This document shows positions 14,157 to 48,729 of a stretch of DNA of 64,000 bases, piece by piece; within the stretch, counting starts at the first letter, position 1; every line of letters starts with the position of its first letter. Source of the stretch: Caulobacter soli (GTDB lineage: Bacteria > Pseudomonadota > Alphaproteobacteria > Caulobacterales > Caulobacteraceae); NCBI RefSeq assembly GCF_011045195.1, contig NZ_CP049199.1, forward strand, positions 5,067,501 to 5,131,500, read 5' to 3'. Under the pieces are notes generated by a model. The model was not told the DNA's origin and made no database searches. It saw only the letters and a list, made by a program, of their open reading frames with translations. Position numbers and translations under genes: made by a program.

Positions 14157-16193
<2,037 letters not shown>

Positions 16194-16327
16194 AGGCTAA
16201 CCTTCCGGTGGCTAAAAACCGACTTCGGCGTAACGATGCAAGACGCGTGAAGCAAGGAACGACGTGACATAGTGTGTTCGTGAAGCTAAGTTTCGTTTCT
16301 TAAAGTTGTATTTTGGCTTTTCCCGCA

Positions 16328-23048: not shown

Positions 23049-23966
23049 TCAGCCGATGCAGGCCAGAGCGAGCTCGAGGTTGCGCTGACCGTCCCAGCCC
23101 GAAACCGGCGCGGCCGCGCCTTCACGGATCGCCCTCAGGAAGGCGGCGTGCTCCAGCTTCAGCGGTTCGGCCTGCTCGACGAACAGGTGCCGCGTCTCAT
23201 AGGCTCCGTCCGGCTTATAGTCCGAATAGGCCGTCGCCTGGCGGGTGATCAGATCGGCCACCACGAAGCGGCTGGCCGTGGCCACCTGGAGCTGGCGCAC
23301 CCGGAAGGGCGTGAGCCAGTTGCAATTGATCTGGGCCTGCGCGCCGTTCTGGGTCCGCGCGAGGATCATCGCCACGTCCTGAGCCGAGCCGTGGGCCTTG
23401 GCGTGCTGGCATGTCACGTCGACGATGTCCGAGTCGGTGAGGAAGCGGACGATGTCGATGTCGTGCACCGCCAGGTCCATGATCACGCCGACATCACCCA
23501 TGCGCGGCGGGAACGGCCCGGCCCGCGTGATCGAGACGGAGATCACCGCCTCGCCCTCGCAAGCCTTCTTGGCGGCCAGGACGGCGGGGTTGAAGCGCTC
23601 GACGTGGCCGACCATCAAGACCTTGCCGGCGGCGTCCGCCGCCGCGATCATCCGCTGGGCTTCCGCTGGCGTATTGGCGATGGGTTTTTCCACGAGGACG
23701 TGGACGCCCCGCGCCAGAAGGGCCTCGGCCAGGGGCGCGTGCAGGTGGTTCGGCGTCGCCACCACCGCGAAGTCGATCCCCGCGGCCAGGGCCTCGTCCA
23801 GATCGGCGAAACCCTGGCAATTCAGTTGCTGCGCCATCTGGGCGCGGCGCGCGGCGTCGACCTCGACCACGCCGACCAGCTCCGCGTCCGGCGCCTGAGC
23901 CAGCATCCGCGCGTGATACGCGCCCATGATCCCGGCCCCGAAGACCGCGCCCCGAAGTTTCGACAT
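23049..23966 (-). CDS. Gfo/Idh/MocA-family sugar dehydrogenase
   Basis: A 305-residue NAD(P)-dependent oxidoreductase. The Rossmann dinucleotide motif is FGAGIMGAYHARML at residues 9-22. The family signature with the catalytic Lys is V-E-K-P-I-A-N-T near residue 92. A His in DLAVHDIDIVRFL is the usual partner. Enzymes of this family oxidise or epimerise nucleotide sugars in polysaccharide pathways. It is one of two in the locus, the other (29494) being closer to WbpB. It follows the Wzt gene on the same strand by 11 bases and is likely co-transcribed with the exporter. Confidence 0.85.
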   Translation of the reverse strand: MSKLRGAVFGAGIMGAYHARMLAQAPDAELVGVVEVDAARRAQMAQQLNCQGFADLDEALAAGIDFAVVATPNHLHAPLAEALLARGVHVLVEKPIANTPAEAQRMIAAADAAGKVLMVGHVERFNPAVLAAKKACEGEAVISVSITRAGPFPPRMGDVGVIMDLAVHDIDIVRFLTDSDIVDVTCQHAKAHGSAQDVAMILARTQNGAQAQINCNWLTPFRVRQLQVATASRFVVADLITRQATAYSDYKPDGAYETRHLFVEQAEPLKLEHAAFLRAIREGAAAPVSGWDGQRNLELALACIG

Positions 23967-23977
23967 CTTGTTTGACC

Positions 23978-24727
23978 TCAGGCGGCGTGAGTCGTGGCCA
24001 TGTAGGTGGCGACGGCGTCCGCGTAGGACCCATCGAAGGCGACGCGGCCGTCCTTCATGTAGATGCCGCGCCGCGCGATCGAGTCCGACAGCGACAACGC
24101 GTGGGTGGCCAGCACGACCAGACCGGCGTTGTTGATGATGTTGATCATCCGCTTGGTGGCCTTCTCGATGAAGGCCGCGTCGCCGGCGCCCAGAACCTCG
24201 TCGATCAGCAGCACGTCGGCGTTGAAGCTGGTGGCGATCGAGAAGGCCAGGCGGATCCGCATGCCGGCCGAATAGGTCCGGATCGGCATGTCGATGAACT
24301 CGCCCAGTTCGGCGAAATCGACGACGTCGTCGACGATCGACCGAGCCTGCTTGGTGCTGGCGCCCATGTAGCGGGCGCGGATGACGATGTTGTCGCGGCC
24401 GCTCGCGTCCTCTTCCATGCCGCTGACCATGTCGAGCAGGGTGCGGATGGAGCCTTGGCGGCGGATGGAGCCGCCGGTCGGCTCATAGATGCCCGCCATC
24501 AGCTTGAGCAGGGTGGACTTGCCCGCGCCATTGCCGCCGACCAGCGCGATGCGGTCGCCGGCCGTGGCCGACAGCGTCACGTCGCGCAGCGCCTGCACCA
24601 TGACCCGGTTATGGTCGGTGGTGCTGCGGCTCTTGAGGGGCTTGATCAGCTGAGTTCGAAATTGGCGGGCGGCGACCCCGTAGACAGGGAACGTCAGCGA
24701 GACGCCTTGAAGGTCGAGACTGGCCAT
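23978..24727 (-). CDS. wzt: ABC transporter ATPase for polysaccharide export
   Basis: A 249-residue ATPase that powers export of lipid-linked O-antigen or capsule across the inner membrane with Wzm. Walker A is GGNGAGKST (64-72), the signature is YSAGM (152-156), Walker B is DVLLIDEVLGAGD (171-183) and the switch His is H209. The YS-x-G-M signature is typical of Wzt/KpsT. Many Wzt proteins carry an extra C-terminal glycan-binding domain; this one ends right after the ATPase fold. That points to a mode in which export does not depend on a capped chain end. Confidence 0.92.
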   Translation of the reverse strand: MASLDLQGVSLTFPVYGVAARQFRTQLIKPLKSRSTTDHNRVMVQALRDVTLSATAGDRIALVGGNGAGKSTLLKLMAGIYEPTGGSIRRQGSIRTLLDMVSGMEEDASGRDNIVIRARYMGASTKQARSIVDDVVDFAELGEFIDMPIRTYSAGMRIRLAFSIATSFNADVLLIDEVLGAGDAAFIEKATKRMINIINNAGLVVLATHALSLSDSIARRGIYMKDGRVAFDGSYADAVATYMATTHAA

Positions 24728-24730
24728 GGG

Positions 24731-25522
24731 CTAGATCCAGAAGGGCAGGCGGCGGCGGGTGAGAACGAAGACCCCGAGTCCCAGGATCAGGCACACGGCC
24801 GCGGAGGCCAGGGCCCGCGACCAGGCGTGCGGCAATGTCGGTTCGTTGATCAGCGGCGCACGCATCACGTCGAGCAGATAGGTGATGGGGTTGAGCAGCA
24901 CGATGGCCTTGTTGCGCACCAGGGTCTCGGGCCGCCAGTAGACCGGCGACAGAAGCGCCCCGATCCCCATGGCCATGCCGATCAGGGGCACCATGTCGCG
25001 GAAACGCGGCGTAAGGCACGCCACGACGAAGACCAGGCCCGTCACGGCCGTCAACACCAGCACGATCCCGGGGATCGCCATCAGCATCGACAGCGACGGG
25101 CGGATCCCCATGACCAGCGCCACGACAAGGAAAGCCACGAGGTGGTGAGCGGTGACGATGGCGTTGCGGATGATCGCGGACAGGATCATCAGGCCATAGG
25201 GCAGCGGCGAACCGGACAGGTGGTTTCGCGCCGAGATCAGGGTGGTGCAGGCCTCGATCAGCGACTGCGAGAGGAAAGACCAGATGATGATGCCCATGAG
25301 AACGAAGGGCAGCGCCTTGCGCAGCTCTCCGCCGAACAGGCCGGTCATCACGAAACTGAGGGCCGAGGCGGTGACCAGGATCGAGATGCTGACCCAGAAC
25401 GGACCGATCAACGAGCGCGCGTACCGCACGCGCAAATCCTGCCAAGCCAGAAAGAAGGCCAGCGGAAGACGAGCAAAGCTGTCTTGCAGATCCCGAGCGC
25501 TAACCTGGAGTGCGTTTTTCAT
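24731..25522 (-). CDS. wzm: ABC-2 type polysaccharide export permease
   Basis: A 263-residue inner-membrane protein with about six hydrophobic helices, the transmembrane half of the exporter with Wzt (next gene, 3 bases apart). The N-terminal AWQDLRVRYARSLIGPFWVSISILV is the ABC-2 amphipathic entry characteristic of Wzm/KpsM. The conserved MVPLIGMAMGIGALLSPVYWRPE segment near residue 180 and LLNPITYLLDVMRAPL are also typical. Its substrate is presumably the glycan built by the enzymes of this locus. Confidence 0.92.
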   Translation of the reverse strand: MKNALQVSARDLQDSFARLPLAFFLAWQDLRVRYARSLIGPFWVSISILVTASALSFVMTGLFGGELRKALPFVLMGIIIWSFLSQSLIEACTTLISARNHLSGSPLPYGLMILSAIIRNAIVTAHHLVAFLVVALVMGIRPSLSMLMAIPGIVLVLTAVTGLVFVVACLTPRFRDMVPLIGMAMGIGALLSPVYWRPETLVRNKAIVLLNPITYLLDVMRAPLINEPTLPHAWSRALASAAVCLILGLGVFVLTRRRLPFWI

Positions 25523-25589
25523 AAAAGTGTCCGAACGGCGTGACGCGTGCGATGATTCACCGGCAAGAGCCCGGCGAAACGGTCAATTT

Positions 25590-26186
25590 TTAGACCGGAT
25601 TCACGACCTCACTGATCTCTAGCTCAAAACCGCACGGTGAGGACAGAAAGACCCGATCGCCGTCGCGTCCGACAACGCTCATCCGCCGTCCCGCCGGGGA
25701 GATGTAGCCGATCACGCGGGCCGGGTTGCCGACCACCAGCGCATGCTCGGGCACATCCTTGGCGACCACGGATCCAGCGCCCACCAGCGCCCAACGCCCA
25801 ATGGTGACGCCCGGGGTGAGCACGGCGGCGCCGCCGATCGAGGCGCCGTAACGCACGGTCACACCAGACACGACCCAATCATCCGCGCTCTTGAAGGATC
25901 CGTCAGCATTGATCGCGCGCGGAAACCGGTCATTCAGAAGCACACAGTGCGGACCCAGAAGAACCCCATCCTCGACGGTGGCTCCTAGATAAACGCTAAC
26001 ATTGTTCTGGATTTTGCAGTTGGAACCGACGTTGACATCAATATCCACAAATGCATTTTTGCCAATGCTCGTGGCGTCACCAATCACGGCGCGCTCGCGA
26101 ACCTGAGCATTATTCCAGATCTTAACCCCTTTACCCAACTTGGCCAGCGGGTGGACTTCAGCCGTTGGATGGATAAGAACTGTCAT
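25590..26186 (-). CDS. Hexapeptide N-acetyltransferase, WbpD-like (copy 1)
   Basis: A 198-residue left-handed beta-helix acetyltransferase. Repeats such as IHPTAEVHPLAKLGKGVKIWNNAQVRERAVIGD start the coil. The loop with CKIQNNVSVYLGATVEDGVLLGPHCVLLND matches the WbpD/WlbB group, which acetylates the 3-amino group of UDP-2-acetamido-3-amino-glucuronate. The C-terminus has a short extra beta region (VVGRDGDRVFLSSPCGFELEISEVV). A second copy is at 37448. Start ATG 26186. It is divergent from the WbpI-like epimerase gene, 118 bases away, and head-to-tail with wzm. Confidence 0.85.
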   Translation of the reverse strand: MTVLIHPTAEVHPLAKLGKGVKIWNNAQVRERAVIGDATSIGKNAFVDIDVNVGSNCKIQNNVSVYLGATVEDGVLLGPHCVLLNDRFPRAINADGSFKSADDWVVSGVTVRYGASIGGAAVLTPGVTIGRWALVGAGSVVAKDVPEHALVVGNPARVIGYISPAGRRMSVVGRDGDRVFLSSPCGFELEISEVVNPV

Positions 26187-26304
26187 CAAATCACATGAGG
26201 TTCGAAATTCTTGATGGCAGGGAATGGCCCAAAAGCCCTTCGGCTGTCAAGCGGACTCACTTCTACCCAAACTGTTCTCATACTGGAAAAATCTGGAGCC
26301 TCAA

Positions 26305-27363
26305 ATGCCGCAGCGGCGAATTTTCAGCGTGGTTGGGGCGCGCCCCCAATTCATCAAGGCCGGGCCTGTCGAACGCGCGTTCAAAGACCACGCCGCGTCG
26401 CGATCCTATATCGTCCACACCGGACAACACTATGACGCCAACATGTCTGAGGTTTTCTTCGAAGAACTGCAGATTCCGCAACCATCGTTCAAACTGAACA
26501 TTTCAGGCGGCTCGCACGGTGAGATGACGGGCCGCATGCTGGAGGCGCTGGACCGCCTGTTCATCGACGAACGGCCCGATGGCGTATTGGTTTACGGCGA
26601 CACCAACTCCACCCTGGCGGGCGCGCTGGCCGCCAGCAAGCTGAGCATCCCGGTCTTCCACATCGAGGCGGGTCTCCGCTCGTTCAACCGGGCCATGCCG
26701 GAGGAGATCAACCGCGTGCTGACCGATCACGTCAGCGATCTGCTGTTCTGCCCCACGGCCGCCGCCGTCGAGAACTTGGTCCGCGAGGGCGTGACCCAGG
26801 GTGTGTACGCGGTCGGCGATGTCATGCAGGACGCCACCCAACAGGCGGCGGCTCGCGCCGAAACCGCGTCGACGGTGTTGGAGACCCTGGATCTGGTCGG
26901 TCGCCCCTACGTGCTCTGCACCATCCACCGCGCCGAGAACACCAACGACCTCGACCGGCTGCGGGCCTTGCTGGACTACGTGCGCGAGACGGCCGCTGGA
27001 CGGCTCATCGTCTTCCCGGTCCACCCCCGCACGCGCAAGATCTGCGAGGCGGCCGGTATCGGCCTGGAAGGCTTCATGCCCATCGACCCCGCCGGCTATC
27101 TGGATCTGCAGCGCCTGATCAGCGGCTGCGAACTGGTCTGCTGCGACAGCGGCGGCCTGCAGAAGGAAGCCTATTTCCATCGCCGGCCCTGCGTGACCCT
27201 GCGCGACGAAACCGAGTGGGTGGAAACGATCGACGCCGGCTGGAACCGGCTTTGGCGCACGCCGGACTTCGTCTCGCCCCGCCGCGGGATCACCGACTAC
27301 GGCGACGGTCACGCCGCGCGCCGGATCGTCGAGCACATCGACCAGTGGTTCGCGACCGCCTGA
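26305..27363 (+). CDS. UDP-GlcNAc 2-epimerase family, WbpI-like
   Basis: A 352-residue non-hydrolysing UDP-N-acetylsugar 2-epimerase. The opening SVVGARPQFIKAGPVERAF, then HTGQHYDANMSEVFFEEL and an HGEMTGRML segment, follow the WbpI subgroup. WecB proteins instead have GTRPEAIKMAP. WbpI turns UDP-2,3-diacetamido-glucuronate into the manno form. Other conserved parts are VYGDTNSTLAGALAA, HIEAGLRSFNR-MPEEINR, IHRAENT and SDSGGLQKEA-like CCDSGGLQKEAYF. ATG 26305 has GGAG six to seven bases upstream. It lies in the midst of WbpA-, B-, D- and E-like genes. Confidence 0.87.
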   Translation: MPQRRIFSVVGARPQFIKAGPVERAFKDHAASRSYIVHTGQHYDANMSEVFFEELQIPQPSFKLNISGGSHGEMTGRMLEALDRLFIDERPDGVLVYGDTNSTLAGALAASKLSIPVFHIEAGLRSFNRAMPEEINRVLTDHVSDLLFCPTAAAVENLVREGVTQGVYAVGDVMQDATQQAAARAETASTVLETLDLVGRPYVLCTIHRAENTNDLDRLRALLDYVRETAAGRLIVFPVHPRTRKICEAAGIGLEGFMPIDPAGYLDLQRLISGCELVCCDSGGLQKEAYFHRRPCVTLRDETEWVETIDAGWNRLWRTPDFVSPRRGITDYGDGHAARRIVEHIDQWFATA

Positions 27364-27382
27364 ACAGGGCGGGCGACCGACC

Positions 27383-27407
27383 GGCCCTGGCCTAGCCGGC
27401 CAGGGCC
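27383..27407. terminator. Hairpin between the epimerase and asparagine synthase genes
   Basis: A perfect ten-base inverted repeat (27383-27392 with 27398-27407) with a five-base loop lies between the convergent gene ends and includes the asnB stop codon. It has no T tract on either strand. It may act as a two-way transcription barrier. Confidence 0.45.
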
Positions 27408-29311
27408 AGCGCCGCCTGGCGCTTCTGGTGGGCCACGTCGTGGAACTGCTGGTACCACAGCTCCAGCGACAGCATTCCCCAGGCGGTGCGCGAGAACGAC
27501 CCCATCGCGGTCATGTTCTTCAGGACCTCGTCACGGCGCACCCAGGGTCGCGTTCCGGCTCGCGCGCTGTTGAAGGTGTCGTGGACGAAGCTCCGCAGTT
27601 CGCCCCCGAACCACTCCTTGAGGGGCACGGGGAAGCCCATCTTGTCGCGCCGGTCCAGCAGCGATGGCGGCAGGCGCTGGCCGAACGCCTGGCGCAGCAG
27701 GTTCTTGGACACGCCGCCCGTCAGCTTGATCGCGGGCGACAGCGAGGCCACGAACTCGACCAGCGGCCGATCCAGGAAGGGCACCCGCGATTCCAGGCCG
27801 TGCGCCATGCCCATGCGATCCTCGACCTGCAGCAGGGCCGGCAGGAGGAAGCGCATGTCGAAGCGCATCATCTTGTCGAAATAGGCCCGTTCGCCCACGC
27901 CCGCTTCATTGAACACACTGGTGAACCGCTCGGCCACCGAGGCCATGGGCAGGTCTTCCAGCTCGACCTCGCCGGCCATGTCGACCGTGCGGTTGATCAG
28001 GCGCAGGTAGCGTTCGTCGAACGGCCCGAACAGGCCCGAGGACCAGGTCGATTTGATCAGCGGCTGATACTCCCGCAGCGACGACAGCTGCGGCAGGATC
28101 GAGGCCAGCGGGAGATCTCGCAGGCCCGGATCGTCCTCGCCCTGGATCGCCGCCCGCAGACCCTGCTCGAGATAGCCGACCATGTACCGCGAGTAGCCGC
28201 CGAAAATCTCATCGCCGCCCTGGCCGCCCAGCACCACCTTCACATGCTCGCCCGCCAGCTTGGACACCATGTATTGCGGAAACGAGCCAGGGCCCGCCAC
28301 CGGCTGGTCCAGGTGGTAGATCACCTTGGGCATCGACTCGATGAAGTCCGAGGCGGTGATGTCGATCTCGTGCAGGCGGCCCGACGCCGAAGCGGCCGCT
28401 TCACGCGCGTAGCCGCTCTCGTCGTAGCCCGGAAATTCCGTGAACTTGCCGTGGAAGAAGTCGCGGTTCTCGTGATTCCCCTCCGCGGCCATGATCGCGA
28501 TGAGGCTGGAATCGACGCCGCCAGACAAATAGGCGCCCACCGGCACGTCGCTGCGCAGGTGCAGGGCCAGCGACTCCTCGACCAGGGCCTCGAGACGCTC
28601 GACGGCCTCGGCCTGGGAGATGTCGCGATAGGCGTATTCGGGCCGCCAGTAGGCGCGCGTCCTGACGTGTCCGTTCTCGATGACCATGGTGTGGCCCGCG
28701 GGAAGCTGACAGACCCCGGCGAACAGGGTGCGCTCGCTCAGGGGAATCTGCAGCGCCACGTATTCGGCGAAGGCTTCGGGATCGGTCTCGACGTCGGGCA
28801 GGAACGGCAGCAGCGTCTTGGCTTCCGACGAGAACATCAAGAGCCGGCCGACCTGGGCGTAATAGAGCGGCTTGATGCCGAACGGGTCGCGCGCCAGGGT
28901 CAGTCGCCGCTCACGCGGCCGCCACAAACCGTAGGCGAACATGCCCCTGAAGCGCTCGACCGCCTCGTCGCCATGGCGAGCATGGGCGGCCAGGATCACT
29001 TCGGTGTCGGTGGCGCTGCGGAAGGTCCAGCGATAGGACAGCGCCGCCCGCAGTTCCACGAAATTGTAGACCTCGCCGTTGTGCACCAGCACCGACTCGT
29101 CCTGGCCCACCATCGGCTGCGCGCCGCGGTCGCTCAGGTCGACAATCGCCAGGCGACGGTGCGCCAATCCCACGGATTCATCGGGCGACACCCAGACACT
29201 GTGGCCGTCGGGGCCACGGTGCGCCTGGATGTCGTTCATCATCCTCAGCCTGCGGGCGAGTTGGGGGATGCGCTCACCATCGAGGTGGATCATGCCCGCT
29301 ATGCCGCACAT
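27392..29311 (-). CDS. asnB: AsnB-type glutamine amidotransferase (asparagine synthase-like), copy 1
   Basis: A 639-residue protein with an N-terminal class II glutaminase and a C-terminal ATP-dependent synthetase. The catalytic Cys2 follows the start Met in M-C-G-I-A-G, which fixes the start at 29311. RGPDGHSVW, NGEVYNF and the PP-loop motif Y-L-S-G-G-V-D-S-S are visible. Such proteins make asparagine, but in glycan loci relatives such as WbpS amidate uronic acids. Its place between WbpI- and WbpB-like genes supports a sugar-amidation role. This is inference. It is divergent from the WbpB-like gene. Confidence 0.85.
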   Translation of the reverse strand: MCGIAGMIHLDGERIPQLARRLRMMNDIQAHRGPDGHSVWVSPDESVGLAHRRLAIVDLSDRGAQPMVGQDESVLVHNGEVYNFVELRAALSYRWTFRSATDTEVILAAHARHGDEAVERFRGMFAYGLWRPRERRLTLARDPFGIKPLYYAQVGRLLMFSSEAKTLLPFLPDVETDPEAFAEYVALQIPLSERTLFAGVCQLPAGHTMVIENGHVRTRAYWRPEYAYRDISQAEAVERLEALVEESLALHLRSDVPVGAYLSGGVDSSLIAIMAAEGNHENRDFFHGKFTEFPGYDESGYAREAAASASGRLHEIDITASDFIESMPKVIYHLDQPVAGPGSFPQYMVSKLAGEHVKVVLGGQGGDEIFGGYSRYMVGYLEQGLRAAIQGEDDPGLRDLPLASILPQLSSLREYQPLIKSTWSSGLFGPFDERYLRLINRTVDMAGEVELEDLPMASVAERFTSVFNEAGVGERAYFDKMMRFDMRFLLPALLQVEDRMGMAHGLESRVPFLDRPLVEFVASLSPAIKLTGGVSKNLLRQAFGQRLPPSLLDRRDKMGFPVPLKEWFGGELRSFVHDTFNSARAGTRPWVRRDEVLKNMTAMGSFSRTAWGMLSLELWYQQFHDVAHQKRQAALALAG

Positions 29312-29493
29312 ATTGATCTCCGAAGCCCTGGCGCTGTTCGCGACCGCTCTACTATCCCGGCCTTTCCCAGTTTCCAACCTCGTGGCGCCGTGACGCTTCG
29401 GCCCGATCGCACGCGCCAGGATCGTCGTAATCTCGTTGCTTTACTACCCAATAGCGAAGCGCTATGCCCGGTCCTCCATTTGGAGGCGCCATT

Positions 29494-30474
29494 TTGGCTG
29501 GTCGTATAGCCGTCGTCGGTTGCGGGTACTGGGGCAAGAACCTCGTTCGAAATTTCGCGGAACTGGGAGCCCTGGGCGCGGTGGTCGATCCACGGCCTGA
29601 GGTTGCGCAGGCCCTGGCGACCACGCACGGCGTCCGCGCTCTCTCGCTGGAAGCGTGCCTTGCCGATCCCACGATCGAGGGCGTCGCGGTCGCCGCCCCC
29701 GCCGAACTCCACGCCGAGGTGTGCATCGCCGCCTCGAACGCCGGCAAGCATGTCTTCGTCGAGAAGCCCATCGCCCTGACCGTCGAAGACGCCGAACGGA
29801 TGAAGGCCGCCGCCGAAGCGAACGGCAAAGCGCTGATGGTCGGCCATCTGCTGCGCTATCATCCCGCCTTCGAAACCCTGGCCGACATGGTGCGCGACGG
29901 CGCGATCGGCGCGGTGCGCTACGCCTATTCCGACCGCCTCAGCCTCGGAAAATTCCGGGTCGAGGAAGATGTCTGCTGGAGCTTCGCGCCCCACGACCTG
30001 TCGATGCTGCTGACGTTGATGGACGCCGATCCCGTCTCCGTGACCGCCACGGGCGTCGACATCGTCACGCCTGGCGTCGACGACATGAGCCGCATCGAGA
30101 TGGCCTTCCCGGGCGGCGCTCGCGCCCATGTCTTCACCGCCTGGCTGCACCCGTTCAAGCGCCACCTGCTCACCGTCGTCGGCGAGACGGGGATGCTGGT
30201 GTTCGAGGATTCGGCCGCCGGTCCCGAGAAGCTGCGGCTGTATCGCCACGGGATCAAGCGTGGCGACGGCGCTCCCGAGCCCGTGAAAGCCGAGGCTGAA
30301 TACGTGCCCTATCCGTCCGAGGAACCGCTGAAGCGCGAATGCCAGCACTTCCTCGACGTGGTCGAAGGACGGGAAGCCACGCCGCGCACCTCGGCGGACG
30401 AAGGCATCCGCGTGCTCAAGGTTCTCACCGCCGCGAGCGCCTCGGCCCGTCGCGCCTCGACCCAAAACGCCTAA
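29494..30474 (+). CDS. Gfo/Idh/MocA dehydrogenase, WbpB-like
   Basis: A 326-residue NAD(P)-dependent oxidoreductase. The Rossmann motif is VVGCGYWGKNLVRNF near the N-terminus and the EKPIALT motif is near residue 88. LLRYHPAF and the SFAPHDLSMLL His region are in order. WbpB/WlbA enzymes oxidise C3 of UDP-GlcNAc-uronate to the 3-keto sugar used by WbpE. The start is a TTG at 29494, which has GGAGG seven bases upstream; the in-frame ATG at 29464 lies before that site. It is first of a likely three-gene operon with the WbpE- and WbpA-like genes. Confidence 0.87.
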   Translation: MAGRIAVVGCGYWGKNLVRNFAELGALGAVVDPRPEVAQALATTHGVRALSLEACLADPTIEGVAVAAPAELHAEVCIAASNAGKHVFVEKPIALTVEDAERMKAAAEANGKALMVGHLLRYHPAFETLADMVRDGAIGAVRYAYSDRLSLGKFRVEEDVCWSFAPHDLSMLLTLMDADPVSVTATGVDIVTPGVDDMSRIEMAFPGGARAHVFTAWLHPFKRHLLTVVGETGMLVFEDSAAGPEKLRLYRHGIKRGDGAPEPVKAEAEYVPYPSEEPLKRECQHFLDVVEGREATPRTSADEGIRVLKVLTAASASARRASTQNA

Positions 30475-30501
30475 CCCGTCTATCGACGCCGGAGCCTTGT
30501 G

Positions 30502-31680
30502 ATGTCCGCCCCTAAAACGCTCGCCTTCATCGATCTCCTAGCCCAGCGCCGCCGCCTGGGCGAGCGGATCGACAAGGCCGTCATGTCCGCCGTTGACGCC
30601 GGCCAGTGGATCATGGGGCCGCAGGTGCGCGAGTTCGAAAAGCGCCTGGCCGAGTTCGGCGGCGCCAAGTTCGCCCTGTCCTGCGCCAACGGCACCGACG
30701 CCCTGGCCCTCCCGCTGATGGCCTGGGACATCGGACCGGGCGACGCGGTGTTCTGCCCGTCCTTCACCTTCGCCGCCACGGCCGAAGTCGTGCCGTGGGT
30801 CGGCGCTTCGCCGGTGTTCGTCGACATCCTGCCCGACACCTTCAACATGAATCCGGCCGACCTCGAGGCCGCGATCGCCAAGACCAAGGCCGACGGCAAG
30901 CTGACCCCCAAGGTGGTGATCGCCGTCGACCTGTTCGGCCAGCCCGCCGACTATCCGGCCATCAAGGCCATCTGCGACCGCGAAGGCCTGAAGCTGATCG
31001 CCGACAGCGCCCAGGGCTTCGGCTGCACGCTGGACGGCAAGCACCCGCTGCACTGGGCCGACGTGGCCACCACCAGCTTCTTCCCGGCCAAGCCCCTGGG
31101 CTGCTACGGCGACGGCGGGGCCGTGCTGACCAACGACGCCGGCCTCGTGGAGCTGATGGATTCGCTGCGCGTGCACGGCAAGGCCACGCAGCGCGACGTC
31201 GAGGGTCGCTCCTTCGCCCACGATCCGAAGTACCTGAACATGCGGGTCGGCATGAACAGCCGCCTCGACACCATCCAGGCGGCCATCCTGCTGGAGAAGC
31301 TGGACGTCTACGCCTGGGAGATCGACCGCCGCAACGAGGTCGCCGATCGCTACGCCCAACAGCTGTCGGACGTCGCGCGCACCCCCGCGGTGATCGAGGG
31401 CGGCCGCTCGACCTGGGCGCAATACACCATCGAGGTCGAGGACCGCGACGGCCTGGCCCAGGCCTTGAAGGCCGTGGGCGTGCCGACGGCGGCCTACTAT
31501 CCGATCCCGCTGCACATGCAGCCGGCCTATGACAGCCACCCCCTGAGCCCTTCGGGCCTTCCCGTGACCCTGGACAAAGCCAAGCGGGTCATCAGCCTGC
31601 CGATGCACCCCGACCTGAACGTCGAGGACCAGGACTACATCATCCAGAGCGTGCGAAACGCGATTGGCGCCAACGCATGA
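30502..31680 (+). CDS. DegT/DnrJ/EryC1 sugar aminotransferase, WbpE-like (locus copy)
   Basis: A 392-residue PLP-dependent aminotransferase. The PLP lysine is K197 in TTSFFPAKPLGCYGD. It would aminate the 3-keto sugar made by the WbpB-like enzyme, using glutamate. Its middle third is almost the same, at DNA level too, as the orphan gene at 4847-6007. GGAG seven bases before ATG 30502 supports the start. Its stop overlaps the start of the WbpA-like gene (ATGA), so the two are translationally coupled. Confidence 0.92.
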   Translation: MSAPKTLAFIDLLAQRRRLGERIDKAVMSAVDAGQWIMGPQVREFEKRLAEFGGAKFALSCANGTDALALPLMAWDIGPGDAVFCPSFTFAATAEVVPWVGASPVFVDILPDTFNMNPADLEAAIAKTKADGKLTPKVVIAVDLFGQPADYPAIKAICDREGLKLIADSAQGFGCTLDGKHPLHWADVATTSFFPAKPLGCYGDGGAVLTNDAGLVELMDSLRVHGKATQRDVEGRSFAHDPKYLNMRVGMNSRLDTIQAAILLEKLDVYAWEIDRRNEVADRYAQQLSDVARTPAVIEGGRSTWAQYTIEVEDRDGLAQALKAVGVPTAAYYPIPLHMQPAYDSHPLSPSGLPVTLDKAKRVISLPMHPDLNVEDQDYIIQSVRNAIGANA

Positions 31681-33056
31681 AACTCGACGCTTTCTCCAGG
31701 CACGACACGGACGCGGCCTTCGAGGCCCTGGCTGTTGATTGGGTGCGGCGGGCCGACGCCCGCGAAATCACCGTGGGCATCATGGGCCTGGGCTATGTGG
31801 GTCTTCCGCTGGCCCGCGCCTATGTCGAGAAGAACGTCCGGGTGATCGGCTACGACATCGACGAGGGTCGGGTCGCTCAGCTCAACGCCGGCGAGTCCTA
31901 TTTCGCGCACATTGGCGATCCCATCGTCTCGAACATGCGCGCCAGCGGGCTGTTCGAAGCGACGACCGCGGTCGAGCGGCTGGCCGAGGCCGACGCCATC
32001 CTGCTGTGCGTGCCCACGCCCCTGGACATCCACCGCGAACCGGACCTGTCCTTCGTGCGGGACACGACCAACGCGATCGGCAAGGTCCTGCGACGCGGCC
32101 AGCTGGTCGTGCTGGAATCCACCACCTATCCCGGCACCAGCTCGGAGGTGATGATCCCGCTCCTCGAGGCCGCCTCCGGCCTGAAGGTCGGACGCGACTT
32201 CGCCGTGGCCTACAGCCCCGAGCGCGAAGACCCCGGCAACCCGCACTTCGACACCACCACCATCCCCAAGGTGGTCGGCGCCGACACGGACGCCGAGCGC
32301 GACATCGCCGTGGCCCTCTACCGCCTGATCACGACTCCGGTGCCCGTCTCCAGCCTGCGCGCCGCCGAGGCCGTCAAGCTGACCGAGAACATCTATCGCC
32401 TGGTCAACATCGCCCTGGTCAATGAACTGAAGGGCGTGTTCCGGAGCATGGGGATCGACGTCTGGGAGGTCATCGACGCGGCCAAGACCAAGCCGTTCGG
32501 CTTCCATGCCTTCTATCCGGGTCCCGGCCTGGGCGGGCATTGCATCCCCATCGATCCGTTCTACCTGACCTGGAAGGCCCGCGCCTTCGGCCTGTCGACC
32601 CGCTTCATCGAACTGGCCGGCGACGTCACCAACCAGCTGCCGCGCAACGTGATCGAGGCCGTGGCCGAGGCGCTCAGCGACCGGCTGTCCATCGCCATCA
32701 ACGGCGCCAAGATCCTGGTGGTGGGCCTGGCCTACAAGAAGAACATCGACGACATGCGCGAAAGCCCGTCGCTGATCCTGATCGATCTGCTGCAGGCCCG
32801 AGGCGCCAAGGTGTCGTATCACGACCCCTACCTGCCCTCGATCCCGCCCACGCGCGAGCATCCGGAACTGGCGGGCTGGGAATCCACGCCGCTGACGCCG
32901 GAAAGCCTGGCTCAGTTCGACTGCGCCCTGATCTCCACCGATCACGACAACATCGACTACGAACTGCTGCTTGAGCATCTGCCGCTGGTGGTCGACACGC
33001 GCAACGCCGTGGCGCGGCACGTCGCGAAACCCAGCGACAAGGTCGTGCGCGCCTAG
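31677..33056 (+). CDS. UDP-N-acetylglucosamine 6-dehydrogenase, WbpA-like
   Basis: A 459-residue UDP-sugar dehydrogenase that oxidises the C6 hydroxyl of UDP-GlcNAc to a carboxylate with two NAD+. The Rossmann motif GIMGLGYVGLPLARAYVEKNV is near residue 35. The catalytic Cys is C289 in PGPGLGGHCIPIDPFYL. YSPEREDPGNP and GLAYKKNIDDMRESPSL mark the WbpA/WecC group over the UDP-glucose dehydrogenases. It starts within the stop of the aminotransferase gene. It provides the first step of the diacetamido-uronic acid pathway. Confidence 0.92.
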   Translation: MKLDAFSRHDTDAAFEALAVDWVRRADAREITVGIMGLGYVGLPLARAYVEKNVRVIGYDIDEGRVAQLNAGESYFAHIGDPIVSNMRASGLFEATTAVERLAEADAILLCVPTPLDIHREPDLSFVRDTTNAIGKVLRRGQLVVLESTTYPGTSSEVMIPLLEAASGLKVGRDFAVAYSPEREDPGNPHFDTTTIPKVVGADTDAERDIAVALYRLITTPVPVSSLRAAEAVKLTENIYRLVNIALVNELKGVFRSMGIDVWEVIDAAKTKPFGFHAFYPGPGLGGHCIPIDPFYLTWKARAFGLSTRFIELAGDVTNQLPRNVIEAVAEALSDRLSIAINGAKILVVGLAYKKNIDDMRESPSLILIDLLQARGAKVSYHDPYLPSIPPTREHPELAGWESTPLTPESLAQFDCALISTDHDNIDYELLLEHLPLVVDTRNAVARHVAKPSDKVVRA

Positions 33057-33078
33057 AACGACGTTCAGCCGCCTCTCA

Positions 33079-33113
33079 CGTTTCCCAGGCCCGGTCGCCG
33101 GACCTGGGAAACG
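33079..33113. terminator. Hairpin between convergent genes wbpA-like and glycosyltransferase
   Basis: A 16-base inverted repeat with one mismatch and a short loop (33079-33094 with 33098-33113) fills the gap between two convergent stop codons. Its foot contains TTT on either strand but no T run follows. It is placed to end transcription from both sides. Confidence 0.55.
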
Positions 33114-34331
33114 CTAGAGCGCCGTCAGACGGGCGACCTCGGCGACGAAAGCGGCGGCGTTCGCTTGCCAACTGTGCGCGGCGGTGAAACGCGCGGCTCC
33201 AGCCCGGGCCAGGGCCATGTCGTCCTCGGTCAACGCCGCCACGCGCGCCGACAGGACATCCGGCGCCGCGCCCGAGGGCGTCAGGAACGCCACGCCGTAG
33301 GGCTGGGCCAACCGCCGGATTTCCGGCAAGTCGGTCGCCAGCATCGGCACGCCGGCGGCGGGATATTCCCAGAGCTTGTTTGGCGTGCAATGGCGCTGGT
33401 TGAGGCTGAGATCCTCGTAGAGCAAGGCGCCCAGCGCCGCCCCCGCCGTCCACGACGGCAGCTCGGCGAACGGCGCCGGCGGAACGAAGCGCACCCGGTC
33501 CGGATCGGCTTGTTCGCGCAGGCGCGCCTCCAGTCGACCCGACCCCATCAACACCAGCGCCCAGCCGGCCGGCAGGCCCGCCCCCGCCTCGACCAGGGCT
33601 TCCAGTCCGCGCATCGGCGCCAGACCGCCTTGGAAGAGCAGGATCCGCACATCGTCGGCCAGGCCCGCGGCCCGGTGCAGGCGGCCGTCATAGACCGGCG
33701 GCGTCGCCTGGTCGGCGGCGTTGTGAACCAGGACCGCGCGCGGGAAATCCGGCCGCCGCTCGGCATACAGCCCCGCGATCCCGGCGTTGACGGTGACGAA
33801 GCCGTCCAGCGCCGGCGCCGCGCCGGCCTCGATCCGGCGCACCCATGCCGCGCGGGCCGGGTCGCCCTGCACCTCCTCTTCATGGAATTCGTGCGCGTCG
33901 TAGATCAGGCGAGCCCCACTTAGAGTCTTGGCCCGCGCGGCCGCCGGCAGGGTTTCGGGATCCGAGCAGACGATCACGTCCGGCCGCCAGGCCGCCACGG
34001 CGTCGGCGGCGGCCCGGATCTGGGCGCGGTACTCGAACCATTGCGCCGCCGTCCGGCGAGCGTCCGACCAGCGGGCGCCACGCGCCAACGCCGCCGCGAA
34101 CACGCCGCCCGAGAGCAGTCGGCCGCTTCGCCGGGCCCGCCAGTCCGGCGTCGTCACATCCGGCGCGGAACGGTCGTGGTCGACCATCGCGAAGCTGGCG
34201 ACCTGAGCCCCCGCGGCCGCCAAGGCGGCCCTCTGCTTCAGCAGGCGCCCATCGCCGCGATCGAAGATCCGCGCGAAGAGGGCGACCTTGCGGCCGGTGA
34301 GATCGGAAGGGAGATCGGAAGCTTGCGACAT
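33114..34331 (-). CDS. Glycosyltransferase, GT4 family
   Basis: A 405-residue GT-B glycosyltransferase. The N-terminal half shows ALFARIFDRGDGRLLKQRAALAAAG, VIVCSDPETLPAA and LIYDAHEFHEEE. The C-terminal half shows LLFQGGLAPMRGLEALVEAG and the donor-site segment RHCTPNKLWEYPAAGVPML, close to that of the glycosyltransferase at 20231. It is very Ala/Arg-rich. No membrane helix is seen. It is divergent from the second asnB with 84 bases between starts. Sugar specificity is unknown. Confidence 0.83.
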   Translation of the reverse strand: MSQASDLPSDLTGRKVALFARIFDRGDGRLLKQRAALAAAGAQVASFAMVDHDRSAPDVTTPDWRARRSGRLLSGGVFAAALARGARWSDARRTAAQWFEYRAQIRAAADAVAAWRPDVIVCSDPETLPAAARAKTLSGARLIYDAHEFHEEEVQGDPARAAWVRRIEAGAAPALDGFVTVNAGIAGLYAERRPDFPRAVLVHNAADQATPPVYDGRLHRAAGLADDVRILLFQGGLAPMRGLEALVEAGAGLPAGWALVLMGSGRLEARLREQADPDRVRFVPPAPFAELPSWTAGAALGALLYEDLSLNQRHCTPNKLWEYPAAGVPMLATDLPEIRRLAQPYGVAFLTPSGAAPDVLSARVAALTEDDMALARAGAARFTAAHSWQANAAAFVAEVARLTAL

Positions 34332-34415
34332 GGCCCTATATACCCTAGGCCTCGCCGCGACCGCGCGCCGAATTTACGACGATAACGACCGCGCGCCAGA
34401 CGGAGTCGAAGGGTC

Positions 34416-36296
34416 ATGTGCGGCATCTGGGCGTCGATCGGCGTTCGCAGGGACGAGCGAATGCTGTCGACGATCTGGCGGCGCGGCCCCGACGGCGAGG
34501 GCTGGCATGAGCCCGGGGGCGAGGGCGCTCCGGTCGTCCTGGGTTTCCGCCGCCTGGCGATCTACGATCTGACAGCCGCGTCCAACCAGCCGATGTCGCG
34601 GCGCGTATCGGCCGGTGATCCGGGTCTTCACATCGTCTTCAATGGCGCCATCTACAATTTCCGCGCGCTGCGCGAGGAGCTCGAAGCCGCCGGCCACGTC
34701 TTCCACACGCACGGCGACACCGAGGTGCTGCTGGCGGCGTGGGACCACTGGGGCGCCGATTGCCTGGCCCGGCTGGACGGGATGTTCGCCTTCGTCATCC
34801 ACGACGCCCGCCGACGCAAGCTGATCGTCGCCCGCGACCGTTTCGGCGAGAAGCCGATCCTCTGGGCCAAGGTTCGGGTGGGCCAGGACCAGGGGTTCGC
34901 CTTCGCGTCCGACGTCCGCCAGTTGCTGCCCTTCCTGACCGACGGCCGCGCCCTGAACGAGGCCGCGACCGCCGATTTCCTGAATATCGGCGCGGTCGAC
35001 TTTGACGACAGCACCTTCTTCGCCGGCATCCAACGCGTCCCCGCCGGCTGCTGGGCCGAATTCGACCTGGATCCGAACGCCCCGCCGAGCCGCGAAGCGT
35101 TCCGCCCCTGGACCCGTTTCGACGCTGAAGCGGTGGCGGGCGACGATCTGGCCGAGCGGCTGCGCGCGGCCCTCGACGAGGCGGTGGCCTTGCGGTTGGC
35201 CGCCGACGTGCCGGTGGGCAGCTGCCTGTCGGGCGGCCTGGACTCGACCCTGATCGTGGCCCTGGCCCAGCGCCGGCTGGCCGAGCGCGGGGCGATGGGC
35301 ATCCACACCGTCAGCGCCGTCTACGACGAAGACGAGGCGCTTTCGGAACGGCCCTATCTGAACGCGGCCCTGGCCGCCAACGACCACCCCGCGCGGCTGA
35401 TCACGCCGACCGGGGACGACATGCTGGCCAATCTGGACGCGGTGATCGAGGCCCAGGGCGAGCCCTTCGCCCACAGCTCGGTCTGCCTGCAGTGGTTCGT
35501 GTTCCGCAGCGCCCGCGAGGAAGGCCTCAAGGTCATGCTCGACGGCCAGGGCGCTGACGAGCTGTTTGGCGGCTACGACCACATGATCGGCCACCACCTG
35601 GCGGAGCGGCTGGCGGCGCTGGACCCCCTCGGCGCGCTGCGTTCGGCCCGCGCCCACGCCAGCGACGGCGCGACGTTCTCGACCAGCGCCTTGGCCAAGG
35701 GCGCCTTGATCCGCCTCGCGCCGGAGCAGGCATTGCGAGGCTTCGCGCGGGCCCGCGGGCGCTATCCGCCCGCCGACTGGCCCATGCCAGGCCACGAGCC
35801 GGCCTTGGCGCCCGCCCGACCCGGCCATGGCCTGTACGACGCCATGACCCAGGACCTCCTGACCCGCGCGTCGCTGCCCGCCCTGTTGCGCTATGAAGAC
35901 CGCAACGCCATGGCCCACGGCGTGGAAAGCCGCCTGCCCTACCTGGCGCCGCGCGTCGTCGACCTGGCCCTGGGCATGTCGAGCCAGATCAAGATGCGCG
36001 ACGGCTGGACCAAGGACATTCTGCGCCGCGCCGCCCAGGGCCTCATCCCCGACGCCATCACGCGCCGCCGCCGCAAGCTGGGCTTCGTGACGCCGCAGGA
36101 CGGCTGGATGGCCGGCCATTGGCGGCCCTGGGCCCTGGAGCGATTGTCCGAGGCGCGCGCGCGGTTCGATTTCCTGGATTCGGCCGCGCTGGACCGGCTG
36201 GAGGCTCAGGTCGGCCATCGAAGCGAAGCCAACGCGGCCGCCTTCCGCCTGGCCGTGTTCGTCAGCTGGTCGGCGATGTTCGACGCGGGTCGCTGA
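34416..36296 (+). CDS. asnB: AsnB-type glutamine amidotransferase (asparagine synthase-like), copy 2
   Basis: A 626-residue amidotransferase. The mature N-terminal nucleophile is Cys2 (M-C-G-I-W-A). The glutaminase domain shows RRGPDGEGW, FNGAIYNFRALREEL and HTHGDTEVLLAAW. The synthetase PP-loop is SCLSGGLDSTLIVALA. DGQGADELFGGYDH and YEDRNAMAHGVESRLPYLAPRVV complete the active site. It may make asparagine or, like WbpS-type proteins, amidate a sugar acid. It lies between two glycosyltransferase genes and overlaps the second by 35 bases at the 3' ends. Confidence 0.85.
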   Translation: MCGIWASIGVRRDERMLSTIWRRGPDGEGWHEPGGEGAPVVLGFRRLAIYDLTAASNQPMSRRVSAGDPGLHIVFNGAIYNFRALREELEAAGHVFHTHGDTEVLLAAWDHWGADCLARLDGMFAFVIHDARRRKLIVARDRFGEKPILWAKVRVGQDQGFAFASDVRQLLPFLTDGRALNEAATADFLNIGAVDFDDSTFFAGIQRVPAGCWAEFDLDPNAPPSREAFRPWTRFDAEAVAGDDLAERLRAALDEAVALRLAADVPVGSCLSGGLDSTLIVALAQRRLAERGAMGIHTVSAVYDEDEALSERPYLNAALAANDHPARLITPTGDDMLANLDAVIEAQGEPFAHSSVCLQWFVFRSAREEGLKVMLDGQGADELFGGYDHMIGHHLAERLAALDPLGALRSARAHASDGATFSTSALAKGALIRLAPEQALRGFARARGRYPPADWPMPGHEPALAPARPGHGLYDAMTQDLLTRASLPALLRYEDRNAMAHGVESRLPYLAPRVVDLALGMSSQIKMRDGWTKDILRRAAQGLIPDAITRRRRKLGFVTPQDGWMAGHWRPWALERLSEARARFDFLDSAALDRLEAQVGHRSEANAAAFRLAVFVSWSAMFDAGR

Positions 36297-37476
36297 CCGA
36301 GGCCATCAGCGCCAGGAGGCGGCGGGCGGCGTCCTCGGGGGTGTCGATGCCCGGACCCACGCGATCCCCCGGGCGGCGCTTGACCAGCTTGACCAGCCGC
36401 TCCGCGGCGTCGCCCGGATCATAGCCGCCAAGCGCCCGCCACGGACCTTCGCCCGCGGCGATGATCGGGGCTCCGACCGCTCGGTACTCGTAGACCTTGC
36501 CGGGAATGGCGGTGGCGTCGCGCGCGGCGGTCACGAGGAAGGCGTCGGCCGCCGCCTGCAAGGTCCGGGTCGTTTCATAGTCCACCGCGCCATACAGACG
36601 CACCGCGCCTGGTGGGCCGGCCGAGCCCAGGACCTCGGCTTCCCCGGGCGTGAGGCGGCCGACGAAATGGAACAGCAGATCCGGTCGCGCCGCCGAAGCC
36701 GTCGCCACGGCCGTCCGCAACGCCTCGACGTCGCAGAACGGGTCCGACAGCGACACGCTGCCTGTATAGAAAACGTGTACGCGATCAGTGGGCAGCTCGG
36801 CGGGCGGCGGCGGCGGGGCCGCGAACTGGGACAGCACCGCCACGACGCCCTTCGGCGCCAGCTGGCGAGCCTCGCGGGCGACCACGTCGTCGACACAGGT
36901 GATCAAGTCCGCTCGCCGCAGCAGATCGCGCGCGATGATCGTCTCGATCCAGCGCCTCAGCGGATGCGCCAGCTCCGGACGGAACGGCCGCGTCAGCCAC
37001 TCGTCGCGCATGTCGGCCGCCCAACGCGCCCCATATCGGCGCGCCAGGGCGGGGCCCGCGCAATGGATGGACTCCGGAGGGCTTGTGGTGATCACCCAGT
37101 CCGGCCGGAAATCACCAAGGCCCTCGGCCGCGCGCACGGCTCTGCGCGCCCACCGGATGTCGGCGTCAGGCCACAGCAGCAACCAGCGCGCCCAGGACCT
37201 CAGCCGCGCCGACAACGAGGCCTTGACCGCTGGGCCGGCCACGCCGGAAACCTCGGGCGCATGCAGCAGGGGCGCGACGACGCCCGCGATCCCGGCGGGC
37301 AGGCCTGGCGCGATCACGCGCACCTGCGCCCCCAGCGCGTTCAGCGCGCGCGCCAACAGGTAGGGCCGGCGCGCGCCGCCGGAGACGTGCGGCGGAAAAT
37401 GGCGGGCGATCAGCAGGATGCGAAGCGGCGCGTCGGCGCCGCCGGGGTCAGGCCTCGACGCGCCGAAGCTGTCCAT
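36262..37476 (-). CDS. Glycosyltransferase (GT4-like)
   Basis: A 404-residue GT-B protein. The opening ILLIARHFPPHVSGGARRPYLLARALNALGAQV is the typical WcaI-like acceptor-domain start. The segment WVITTSPPESIHCAGPALARRYGARWAADMRDEW matches the group with a D-x-R-D/E stretch. HVFYTGSVSLSDPFCDVEAL and GKVYEYRAVGAPIIA form the donor side. The start is taken at ATG 37476, just inside the 3' end of the acetyltransferase gene (29-base overlap), implying coupled translation. Sugar specificity is unknown. Confidence 0.82.
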   Translation of the reverse strand: MDSFGASRPDPGGADAPLRILLIARHFPPHVSGGARRPYLLARALNALGAQVRVIAPGLPAGIAGVVAPLLHAPEVSGVAGPAVKASLSARLRSWARWLLLWPDADIRWARRAVRAAEGLGDFRPDWVITTSPPESIHCAGPALARRYGARWAADMRDEWLTRPFRPELAHPLRRWIETIIARDLLRRADLITCVDDVVAREARQLAPKGVVAVLSQFAAPPPPPAELPTDRVHVFYTGSVSLSDPFCDVEALRTAVATASAARPDLLFHFVGRLTPGEAEVLGSAGPPGAVRLYGAVDYETTRTLQAAADAFLVTAARDATAIPGKVYEYRAVGAPIIAAGEGPWRALGGYDPGDAAERLVKLVKRRPGDRVGPGIDTPEDAARRLLALMASVSDPRRTSPTS

Positions 37477-38011
37477 TGACGACCTCGTACTTTTCGCCGG
37501 TCCGCGGGCACGTGAGATCGTCGCGCAGCACCTCGCCGGCATGGCTGACCCAGCCGATGCGGCGAGCCGGGACGCCCGCCATCAGGGAGAAGGGCTTGAC
37601 GTCCTTGGTGATCACCGCGCCGGCGGCGATGAACGCGTATTCGCCCAATTCGGAGCCGCAGACGATCGTGGCGTTCGCCCCGATCGTCACGCCCTTGCGC
37701 ACCTTGGTCGGCGCGAATTCGCCCCGTCGATTGACGCCCGAGCGCGGGGTCACGACGTTGGTGAACACGCAGGAGGGGCCGCAGAACACATTGTCCTCCA
37801 GCTCCACGCCTTCATAGAGGCTGACATTGTTCTGGACCCGGCAGTTGTCGCCGATGGTCACGTTCGGCCCCACCATCACGTTCTGACCGAACGAGCAGTT
37901 CTGGCCGATCCGCGAGCCGCCGAGAATGTGGGAAAAGTGCCAGATCGTGGTGCCTTCGCCCAAGGTCACATTGTCATCGACATAGGAGGACGGGTGAACG
38001 GAGGCCGGCAT
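37448..38011 (-). CDS. Hexapeptide N-acetyltransferase, WbpD-like (copy 2)
   Basis: A 187-residue left-handed beta-helix acetyltransferase, starting at ATG 38011. Typical WbpD/WlbB features are VHPSSYVDDNVTLGEGTTIWHFSHI, the acceptor loop NCRVQNNVSLYEGVELEDNVFCGPSCVFTNV and the ending LTCPRTGEKYEVVNGQLRRVEA. The His of TIWHFSHI region is expected near the active site. It would acetylate a 3-amino UDP-sugar acid. It resembles the WbpD family more closely than the copy at 25590 does. A downstream glycosyltransferase overlaps its end; it is divergent from transketolase. Confidence 0.88.
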   Translation of the reverse strand: MPASVHPSSYVDDNVTLGEGTTIWHFSHILGGSRIGQNCSFGQNVMVGPNVTIGDNCRVQNNVSLYEGVELEDNVFCGPSCVFTNVVTPRSGVNRRGEFAPTKVRKGVTIGANATIVCGSELGEYAFIAAGAVITKDVKPFSLMAGVPARRIGWVSHAGEVLRDDLTCPRTGEKYEVVNGQLRRVEA

Positions 38012-38162
38012 GCTTTGATCCGTGAGGGTTGTGGGTCGACTCGACCTAGCCCCTCCCGCCGGGCTTGGCAACTCGACGCGCCCCGGGGTGTCGTTCGCTT
38101 GCGACGCGCGGCGCAATGATGCAGAGAGACGCCTTCCCGCCATCTCGCCCCAAAGCATTGTC

Positions 38163-47842: not shown

Positions 47843-47845
47843 TCC

Positions 47846-48724: not shown

Positions 48725-48729
48725 CGCCC

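Follow-up and report, generated by a model that had tools for sequence, protein, structure and literature searches.

A Caulobacter soli locus with homologues for UDP-2,3-diacetamido-mannuronic acid synthesis and candidate amidotransferases for its amide

Gene content of the locus

We analysed a window of 64,000 nucleotides from Caulobacter soli (positions 5,067,501 to 5,131,500 of contig NZ_CP049199.1; the source genome, G000, has 5.68 Mb on two contigs, C1 and C2). Unprefixed positions below are those of the window, and G and L numbers are our own handles for genomes and loci. An earlier note, made from the letters alone, had proposed that the interval 23049-38011 encodes a WbpA-B-E-D-I-like route plus amidotransferases for a diacetamido-uronamide surface glycan. 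Here, we found in this interval homologues for every step from UDP-N-acetylglucosamine (UDP-GlcNAc) to UDP-2,3-diacetamido-2,3-dideoxy-mannuronic acid (UDP-ManNAc3NAcA), together with two AsnB-type amidotransferases, glycosyltransferases and a Wzm/Wzt exporter. All genes named in the note proved to be long open reading frames (ORFs) with a coding-type GC content at third codon positions, and profile matches placed each in the family that had been stated.

Three of the pathway genes follow one another on the plus strand: the Gfo/Idh/MocA dehydrogenase Gfo2 (29464-30474), a DegT-type aminotransferase (locus DegT, 30499-31680) and a UDP-sugar 6-dehydrogenase (31677-33056), the stop of the second overlapping the start of the third. 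The locus is not a product of chance, because a related genome (G217, 66-91% identity per protein) has the same locus, gene by gene, and the expected catalytic motifs are present. The presence of the genes, their families and lineages, their key residues and their linkage were all observed directly.

The epimerase

The epimerase (Epi, about 26305-27363, plus strand) is the sole PF02350 protein of the genome and appears to be a WbpI-type 2-epimerase of UDP-2,3-diacetamido-2,3-dideoxy-glucuronic acid (UDP-GlcNAc3NAcA). It scored 406 bits against the Thermus thermophilus enzyme of this activity (8sxv) versus 129 bits against Escherichia coli WecB (1f6d). Compared with UDP-GlcNAc epimerases, the Thermus enzyme has Trp307 in place of a conserved Arg, Ala18 in place of Leu/Met and Tyr96 in place of His/Gln (PMC10622841; here and below, papers are cited for the passages that bear on the point), and Epi carries Trp, Ala and Tyr at the three positions. 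Among 93 WbpI-type rows of the alignment (about 91 distinct, picked by likeness to the window's epimerase), Trp was found in all 93, and Ala and Tyr in 87 each at their columns. The 20 WecB-type control rows all had Arg at the first position and Leu or Met at the second, with His or Gln (12) or Leu (8) at the third.

One alternative is that Epi is a WecB that makes UDP-N-acetylmannosamine while its neighbours make unrelated sugars. The TIGR00236 wecB model is indeed the only NCBIfam equivalog that Epi passed (290 bits, cut-off 210). However, scores against solved structures favour the UDP-GlcNAc3NAcA epimerase threefold, and Trp stands where every WecB-type control has Arg, with Ala and Tyr at the other two positions. 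We therefore rejected Epi as a WecB and regard this alternative as hardly credible. The preference of the earlier note for WbpI over WecB is borne out, and the grouping with WecB that it had named as counter-evidence did not appear in either the scores or the residues.

The aminotransferase and its lipid A paralogue

The best solved relatives of the locus DegT were 4qgr (403 bits) and WbpE (321 bits), versus 148 bits for the perosamine synthetase 3bn1. Judged by these scores, it is an aminotransferase of the 3-amino-sugar type, far from perosamine synthase, and a perosamine-type enzyme was rejected. Grouping with perosamine synthase, the second counter-test set by the earlier note, was seen neither in the scores nor in the tree. 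The description of this protein as WbpE-like holds for its family and its 3-aminotransferase type and fails for its lineage, since the trees place it apart from Pseudomonas WbpE. A first tree united the locus DegT and its orthologue in G217 with 10 core copies (support 100/100), away from WbpE. In a second tree, containing 48 core copies of the order and the locus pair, these 50 rows stayed together (100/100). The core copies formed one undivided side in none of 200 bootstrap trees, and the locus pair therefore nests among them; no starred branch forces this nesting, and the closest association, which is with a different family of the order, reached only 82/85. The locus DegT thus looks like a recruited GnnB-type enzyme.

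The core copy of this genome, DegT2 (4850-5989, minus strand), lies in the same window and is 72% identical to the locus DegT. It was found in 75/75 genomes of the genus, and a match at E 1e-80 or better was obtained in 58/60 genomes of the order, with identity as low as 43-50% in some. Only G000 and G217 showed a second DegT copy at 70-72% identity. Lipid A of C. crescentus contains 2,3-diamino-2,3-dideoxy-glucose (GlcN3N), and a GnnB homologue, CC_3611, has been reported at 53% identity (PMC7663294). For these two reasons, DegT2 is probably the GnnB of lipid A synthesis. A core Gfo/Idh/MocA dehydrogenase (core Gfo, C1:3119368-3120285; 73/75 genus genomes, and 60/60 of the better ones) is its probable partner in the GnnA role. 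This assignment is less sure than that of GnnB, because the GnnA candidate proposed there shares only 25% identity with its reference (PMC7663294).

These paralogues bear on another possible explanation, namely that Gfo2 and the locus DegT themselves act as GnnA/GnnB in lipid A synthesis and have no connection with a uronic acid. GlcN3N in Caulobacter lipid A (PMC7663294) and the grouping of the locus DegT with the core GnnB-type enzymes would fit it. A need of lipid A would, however, imply conservation throughout the genus; it is the core DegT and core Gfo, at other places, that are so conserved, and the 70-72% second copy is confined to two genomes. A lipid A role for the locus pair is thus very unlikely and was set aside on account of the conserved copies elsewhere, which leave the pair free for another role. 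The resemblance to GnnA/GnnB extends to the chemistry (oxidation and transamination at C3) and, for the locus DegT, to the lineage (PMC7663294); the difference is that the genus-conserved copies lie outside the locus, the locus copy being found in G000 and G217 only.

Some further genes of this genome concern related sugars. A GDP-mannose 4,6-dehydratase, which bears on perosamine, lies at C1:202421-203437 (606 bits). Another DegT protein, at 3.63 Mb, could not be named. PseB and PseC exceeded their cut-offs at 5.02 Mb (L159:4851-7150), pointing to pseudaminic-acid-type synthesis about 50 kb before the window.

Dehydrogenases and acetyltransferases

Gfo2 (PF01408) is a candidate 3-dehydrogenase of UDP-N-acetylglucosaminuronic acid, that is, it takes the WbpB position. 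As a stand-in for WbpB we used the dehydrogenase of a Pseudomonas locus (L105), not PAO1 WbpB itself; Gfo2 matched it at 29% over 73 residues. The WbpB likeness proposed earlier can be retained for family and gene position and not for lineage. Gfo2 recurs at the same gene position in other WbpI-type loci, with 36-54% identity to their dehydrogenases and 85% in G217. At E 1e-30, its lineage was present in 22 loci, the L105 lineage in 12, and both together in none. The 22 loci are about 20 distinct ones (L057/L149 and L065/L154 appear to be the same contigs, and all were kept), and as 12 of them came from a family-wide search seeded with the window's epimerase, the 22:12 ratio is no estimate of frequency. 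We infer two alternative dehydrogenase lineages for the WbpB step. They were mutually exclusive in the loci examined, and annotation by likeness to Pseudomonas would miss the other lineage.

The 6-dehydrogenase, a candidate for the WbpA position, carries a GGHCIP motif and passed a single model, the broad subfamily model TIGR03026 (402 bits, cut-off 190). Its best solved relative is an archaeal UDP-N-acetylmannosaminuronic acid (UDP-ManNAcA) dehydrogenase (199 bits), and it is 56% identical to its counterpart in L105.

Two hexapeptide acetyltransferases were compared with 3mqg, which we take to be WlbB. HexB (minus strand, 37448-38011, with its true start near 38011) scored 218 bits, the alignment beginning at residue 106 of the long ORF, and it supplies the WbpD/WlbB-type N-acetyltransferase characteristic of WbpA-B-E-D-I pathways. 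HexA (25590-26189, minus strand) is a distant relative at 117 bits. Of the two WbpD-like genes that had been proposed, the one at 37448 is therefore well placed by its 218 bits and the one at 25590 is a weaker relative.

A second Gfo/Idh/MocA dehydrogenase, Gfo1 (23049-23966, minus strand), lies inside the interval 3' of wzt and was absent from the text of the earlier note. It is UDP-GlcNAc 3-dehydrogenase-like: against NF040723, the model for that activity (cut-off 450), Gfo1, Gfo2 and the core Gfo scored 256, 140 and 128 bits, all below the cut-off, and among 120 matches listed several relatives of Gfo1 are named UDP-N-acetylglucosamine 3-dehydrogenase by JGI. Gfo1 is 75% and HexA 91% identical in G217. 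In line with Wzm and Wzt, these two proteins seem to belong to a second route to a 3-amino sugar.

Accordingly, a C3-first route has to be weighed, running in parallel or instead, in which Gfo1 would oxidise C3 of UDP-GlcNAc, a DegT aminate it and HexA acetylate the amine; the product, UDP-2,3-diacetamido-2,3-dideoxy-glucose (UDP-GlcNAc3NAc), would be either a second sugar or a precursor for oxidation at C6. Gfo1 is the best of the three dehydrogenases against the UDP-GlcNAc 3-dehydrogenase model, HexA, Wzm, Wzt and Gfo1 stand in line on one strand and are all kept in G217, and the locus DegT is of the GnnB-type lineage. On the other side, Gfo1 remains under the cut-off, its substrate role is putative, and HexA is only distantly related to WlbB. 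We consider this route possible, though rather doubtful.

The exporter and the glycosyltransferases

The exporter claimed for the locus is present at 25522-23978 (minus strand). Wzm, the permease of the ATP-binding cassette (ABC) exporter (24731-25522), matched PF01061, one of six such proteins in the genome, and scored 158 bits against NF050109 (cut-off 380). Wzt, the ATPase (23978-24727, 249 residues), scored 236 bits against NF050108, a galactan Wzt model (cut-off 400); its Pfam domains are ABC_tran alone, plus an AAA_21 match below cut-off. Glycosyltransferases lie at 33114-34331 (PF13692, PF13579) and 36262-37542 (PF13579, PF13439), both on the minus strand. Wzm and Wzt accompanied by glycosyltransferases are a feature of ABC-dependent O-antigen loci.

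The amidotransferases and the amide

Two AsnB-type genes lie among the pathway genes, as had been noted: AsnB1 (27392-29311, minus strand) and AsnB2 (34416-36296, plus strand). Both have glutaminase and synthase domains with MCG and SGGxDS motifs. AsnB1 matched PF00733 and GATase_7, its motifs being MCGI, RGPD and SGGVDS, and is a candidate uronamide-forming glutamine amidotransferase; AsnB2 matched PF00733. Against the asparagine synthase model TIGR01536 (cut-off 267) AsnB1 and AsnB2 scored 463 and 366 bits, and against TIGR03108 (cut-off 817) 389 and 304 bits, below both the cut-off and their TIGR01536 scores. There are three Asn_synthase-domain proteins in the genome, two at the locus and one on contig 2 (G000:C2:180457-181533, L163, within an open frame of 790 codons). 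Three of 14 control genomes lacked any such protein; C. vibrioides is among them, and the genus therefore does not need one.

AsnB1 belongs to a clade of 12 members (support 100/99). Ten of them adjoin short-chain dehydrogenase/reductase (SDR) genes like WbmH, WbmG or WbmF, eight with all three types and two (L044 and L049) with two types; the other two members are those of the window and G217. The SDR identities rest on the L033 gene, which matched 2q1w at 501 bits; 2q1w is WbmH, and 2pzk/2pzl/2pzm are WbmG (PMC2279256). WbmF, WbmG and WbmH turn UDP-ManNAc3NAcA into UDP-2,3-diacetamido-2,3-dideoxy-galacturonic acid (UDP-GalNAc3NAcA) (PMC3849452), and Bordetella O chains have been described as uronamide-rich (PMC3507681). 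AsnB2 belongs to a different clade, which also contains the AsnB proteins of two Pseudomonas WbpI-type loci. In Porphyromonas gingivalis, an AsnB adjoining wbp genes is needed for a uronamide (PMC7468200).

AsnB proteins above 100 bits were found in 24/80 WbpI-type loci (the best 80 of at least 578 relatives) and in 20/44 of those of at least 18 kb, versus 1/20 WecB-type loci (two of these 20 fall short of 18 kb). For 20/44 versus 1/20 the Fisher p value is 0.0013, which is only a guide because the test loci come from many phyla and the controls from one family.

A competing explanation accepts that the sugar acid is made and exported and lets the AsnB proteins act elsewhere (in making asparagine, or on some other sugar or small molecule), so that the chain would contain free ManNAc3NAcA. 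Both proteins do exceed the TIGR01536 cut-off, and eight other Caulobacter loci hold the core gene set with no AsnB detected. Against it stand the WbmF/G/H-like neighbours in 10/12 members of the AsnB1 clade, the C. vibrioides control that has no Asn_synthase-domain protein, and the location of the third such protein of this genome on contig 2. A free-acid chain is thus tenable but improbable. The uronamide claim of the earlier note gains from the same clade and control, and is weakened in that both AsnB proteins pass TIGR01536; amide formation is the weakest step of the whole scheme.

No gene like WbmH turned up in the genome, the top match reaching 49 bits (34% over 169 residues). In the window, the WbmF/G/H types matched only an RmlB-like gene at 24-26%, WbmF and WbmG not being searched genome-wide. 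The manno form of the sugar is predicted on these two grounds.

Bordetella wbmE was considered as an amidotransferase and dropped, as PMC3507681 describes it as a periplasmic deamidase. A word search of PMC2279256, PMC12243275 and PMC11895810 found no amidating wbm gene; PMC12243275 does no more than mention predicted asparagine synthase genes, in a figure legend on a wbm locus that is newly found. The co-occurrence of an AsnB1-type protein, WbmF/G/H-like SDRs and a WbpI-type epimerase was seen in L033, L037, L038, L040, L042, L044, L049, L087, L088 and L110, which belong to alphaproteobacteria (Holospora included) and Comamonadaceae.

Distribution among relatives

The epimerase was found at 51% identity or more in 15/390 family genomes, of which 11 belong to the genus (75 genomes); matches at 41-46% in three more family genomes were left out of the count. 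Two records named Caulobacter sp. (L057 and L065) carry the same epimerase type. Only G217, among the ten other genus genomes with the epimerase, has the whole locus. Eight Caulobacter loci (L146, L148-L154) have Gfo2, the 6-dehydrogenase, HexB and Epi; a search of about 20 kb at E 1e-8 detected neither DegT nor AsnB, Wzm or Wzt in them. G207 (L145) combines Gfo2 and Epi with the 6-dehydrogenase, and its DegT (35%) and AsnB (31-33%) are distant.

At E 1e-60, the core DegT was the sole match in six of the eight core-set genomes (G238, among the six, is 85% complete). This suggests, but does not prove, that the core enzyme is able to act in both pathways. In the remaining two, G214 and G218, another DegT (42%) lies elsewhere in the genome.

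Proposed pathway

Based on the gene content, we propose that the locus makes UDP-ManNAc3NAcA, that AsnB1 and perhaps AsnB2 form an amide at C6, that the local glycosyltransferases build a chain and that Wzm/Wzt export this chain, a scheme that we consider reasonably probable as a whole. The 6-dehydrogenase would oxidise C6 of UDP-GlcNAc, Gfo2 would oxidise C3, the locus DegT would aminate C3, HexB would N-acetylate the resulting amine and Epi would invert C2 to give UDP-ManNAc3NAcA. A C6 carboxylate would then be converted to the amide by AsnB1, perhaps also AsnB2, with glutamine as donor. All of these reactions, the amide above all, and the chain itself are predictions from sequence.

The UDP-ManNAc3NAcA part of the earlier proposal is supported: the epimerase is WbpI-type by its scores and residues, the aminotransferase is of the 3-amino type, and the aminotransferase and the acetyltransferase are nearest to 3-amino-sugar enzymes. 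The recurrence of the set of Gfo2, 6-dehydrogenase, WbpD-like and WbpI-type genes in eight other Caulobacter loci supports it as well.

On the other hand, several points weigh against the scheme. Neither the WbpB position (with L105 as stand-in) nor the WbpE position (by the trees) is held by the Pseudomonas lineage; for WbpE this is a matter of lineage and not of function. Both AsnB proteins pass an asparagine synthase model and miss the cut-offs of other amidotransferase models, AsnB is missing from the eight core-set Caulobacter loci, and the linkage test compares unlike sets of loci. Finally, Gfo1 and HexA have no role in the scheme.

A broader reading goes further: a single Caulobacter aminotransferase lineage would serve both lipid A and a surface glycan, a copy of it would have been captured into the window's locus, and C3-first (Gfo1) and C6-first (Gfo2) routes in the same locus would together lead to a diacetamido-mannuronamide polymer. 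Taken jointly, these propositions are speculative and we put them forward only tentatively.

Relation to known systems

The chemistry of the proposed scheme is already known from other bacteria; what is new is the combination of enzyme lineages, two of them unexpected. As in the WbpA-B-E-D-I pathway of Pseudomonas aeruginosa PAO1 and T. thermophilus HB27 (PMC10622841), five enzyme positions are filled, the epimerase is of the type with the same three substrate residues, and a WbpD-like acetyltransferase is present. In contrast to that pathway, the WbpB position has another Gfo lineage, the WbpE position a GnnB-type enzyme, and AsnB proteins and an ABC exporter lie alongside. With the Bordetella wbm O-antigen locus (PMC3849452, PMC2279256, PMC3507681) it would share the use of UDP-ManNAc3NAcA and has in common an ABC exporter, and the relatives of AsnB1 lie in wbm-like gene sets; however, given that no WbmH-like gene was found in this genome, no L-galacto sugar is expected. 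The uronamide amidotransferases WbpS, WbqG and PGN_1234 (PMC7468200) are similarly AsnB-type and encoded beside wbp-like genes, but AsnB1 and AsnB2 miss the cut-off of TIGR03108, to which the same paper assigns WbpS.

The O-antigen repeat of C. crescentus consists of N-acetylperosamine and mannose with a methylated glucose branch (PMC6978808). The scheme predicts instead 2,3-diacetamido-mannuronic acid and its amide on a Caulobacter, and S-layer anchoring and phage adsorption, which are O-antigen-dependent in C. crescentus, could differ in this strain. It would also mean that lipid A and surface-chain synthesis may share one aminotransferase lineage. Among the matches listed from one open-access library, none joins Caulobacter with ManNAc3NAcA, though the sugar may well have been described elsewhere, and none contains the word mannuronamide or ManNAc3NAcAN; a paper on flagellin glycosylation (PMC7591256) contains both Caulobacter and the word diacetamido.

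Neighbouring genes

The surroundings of the locus include genes for a mannose-1-phosphate guanylyltransferase (12738-14054), an NAD-synthase-domain protein (14157-16193) and a transketolase (38022-40157), and rmlB/D/A-like genes (46781-49596). Two long ORFs adjoining the locus, 16313-17419 (plus strand) and 17383-18315 (minus strand), had no Pfam match, and the first had no NCBIfam match either. An LpxD-like acyltransferase gene (18132-19052, minus strand) stands amid glycosyltransferase genes; its product scored 215 bits against NF002060 (cut-off 207), below the cut-off of the LpxD equivalog.

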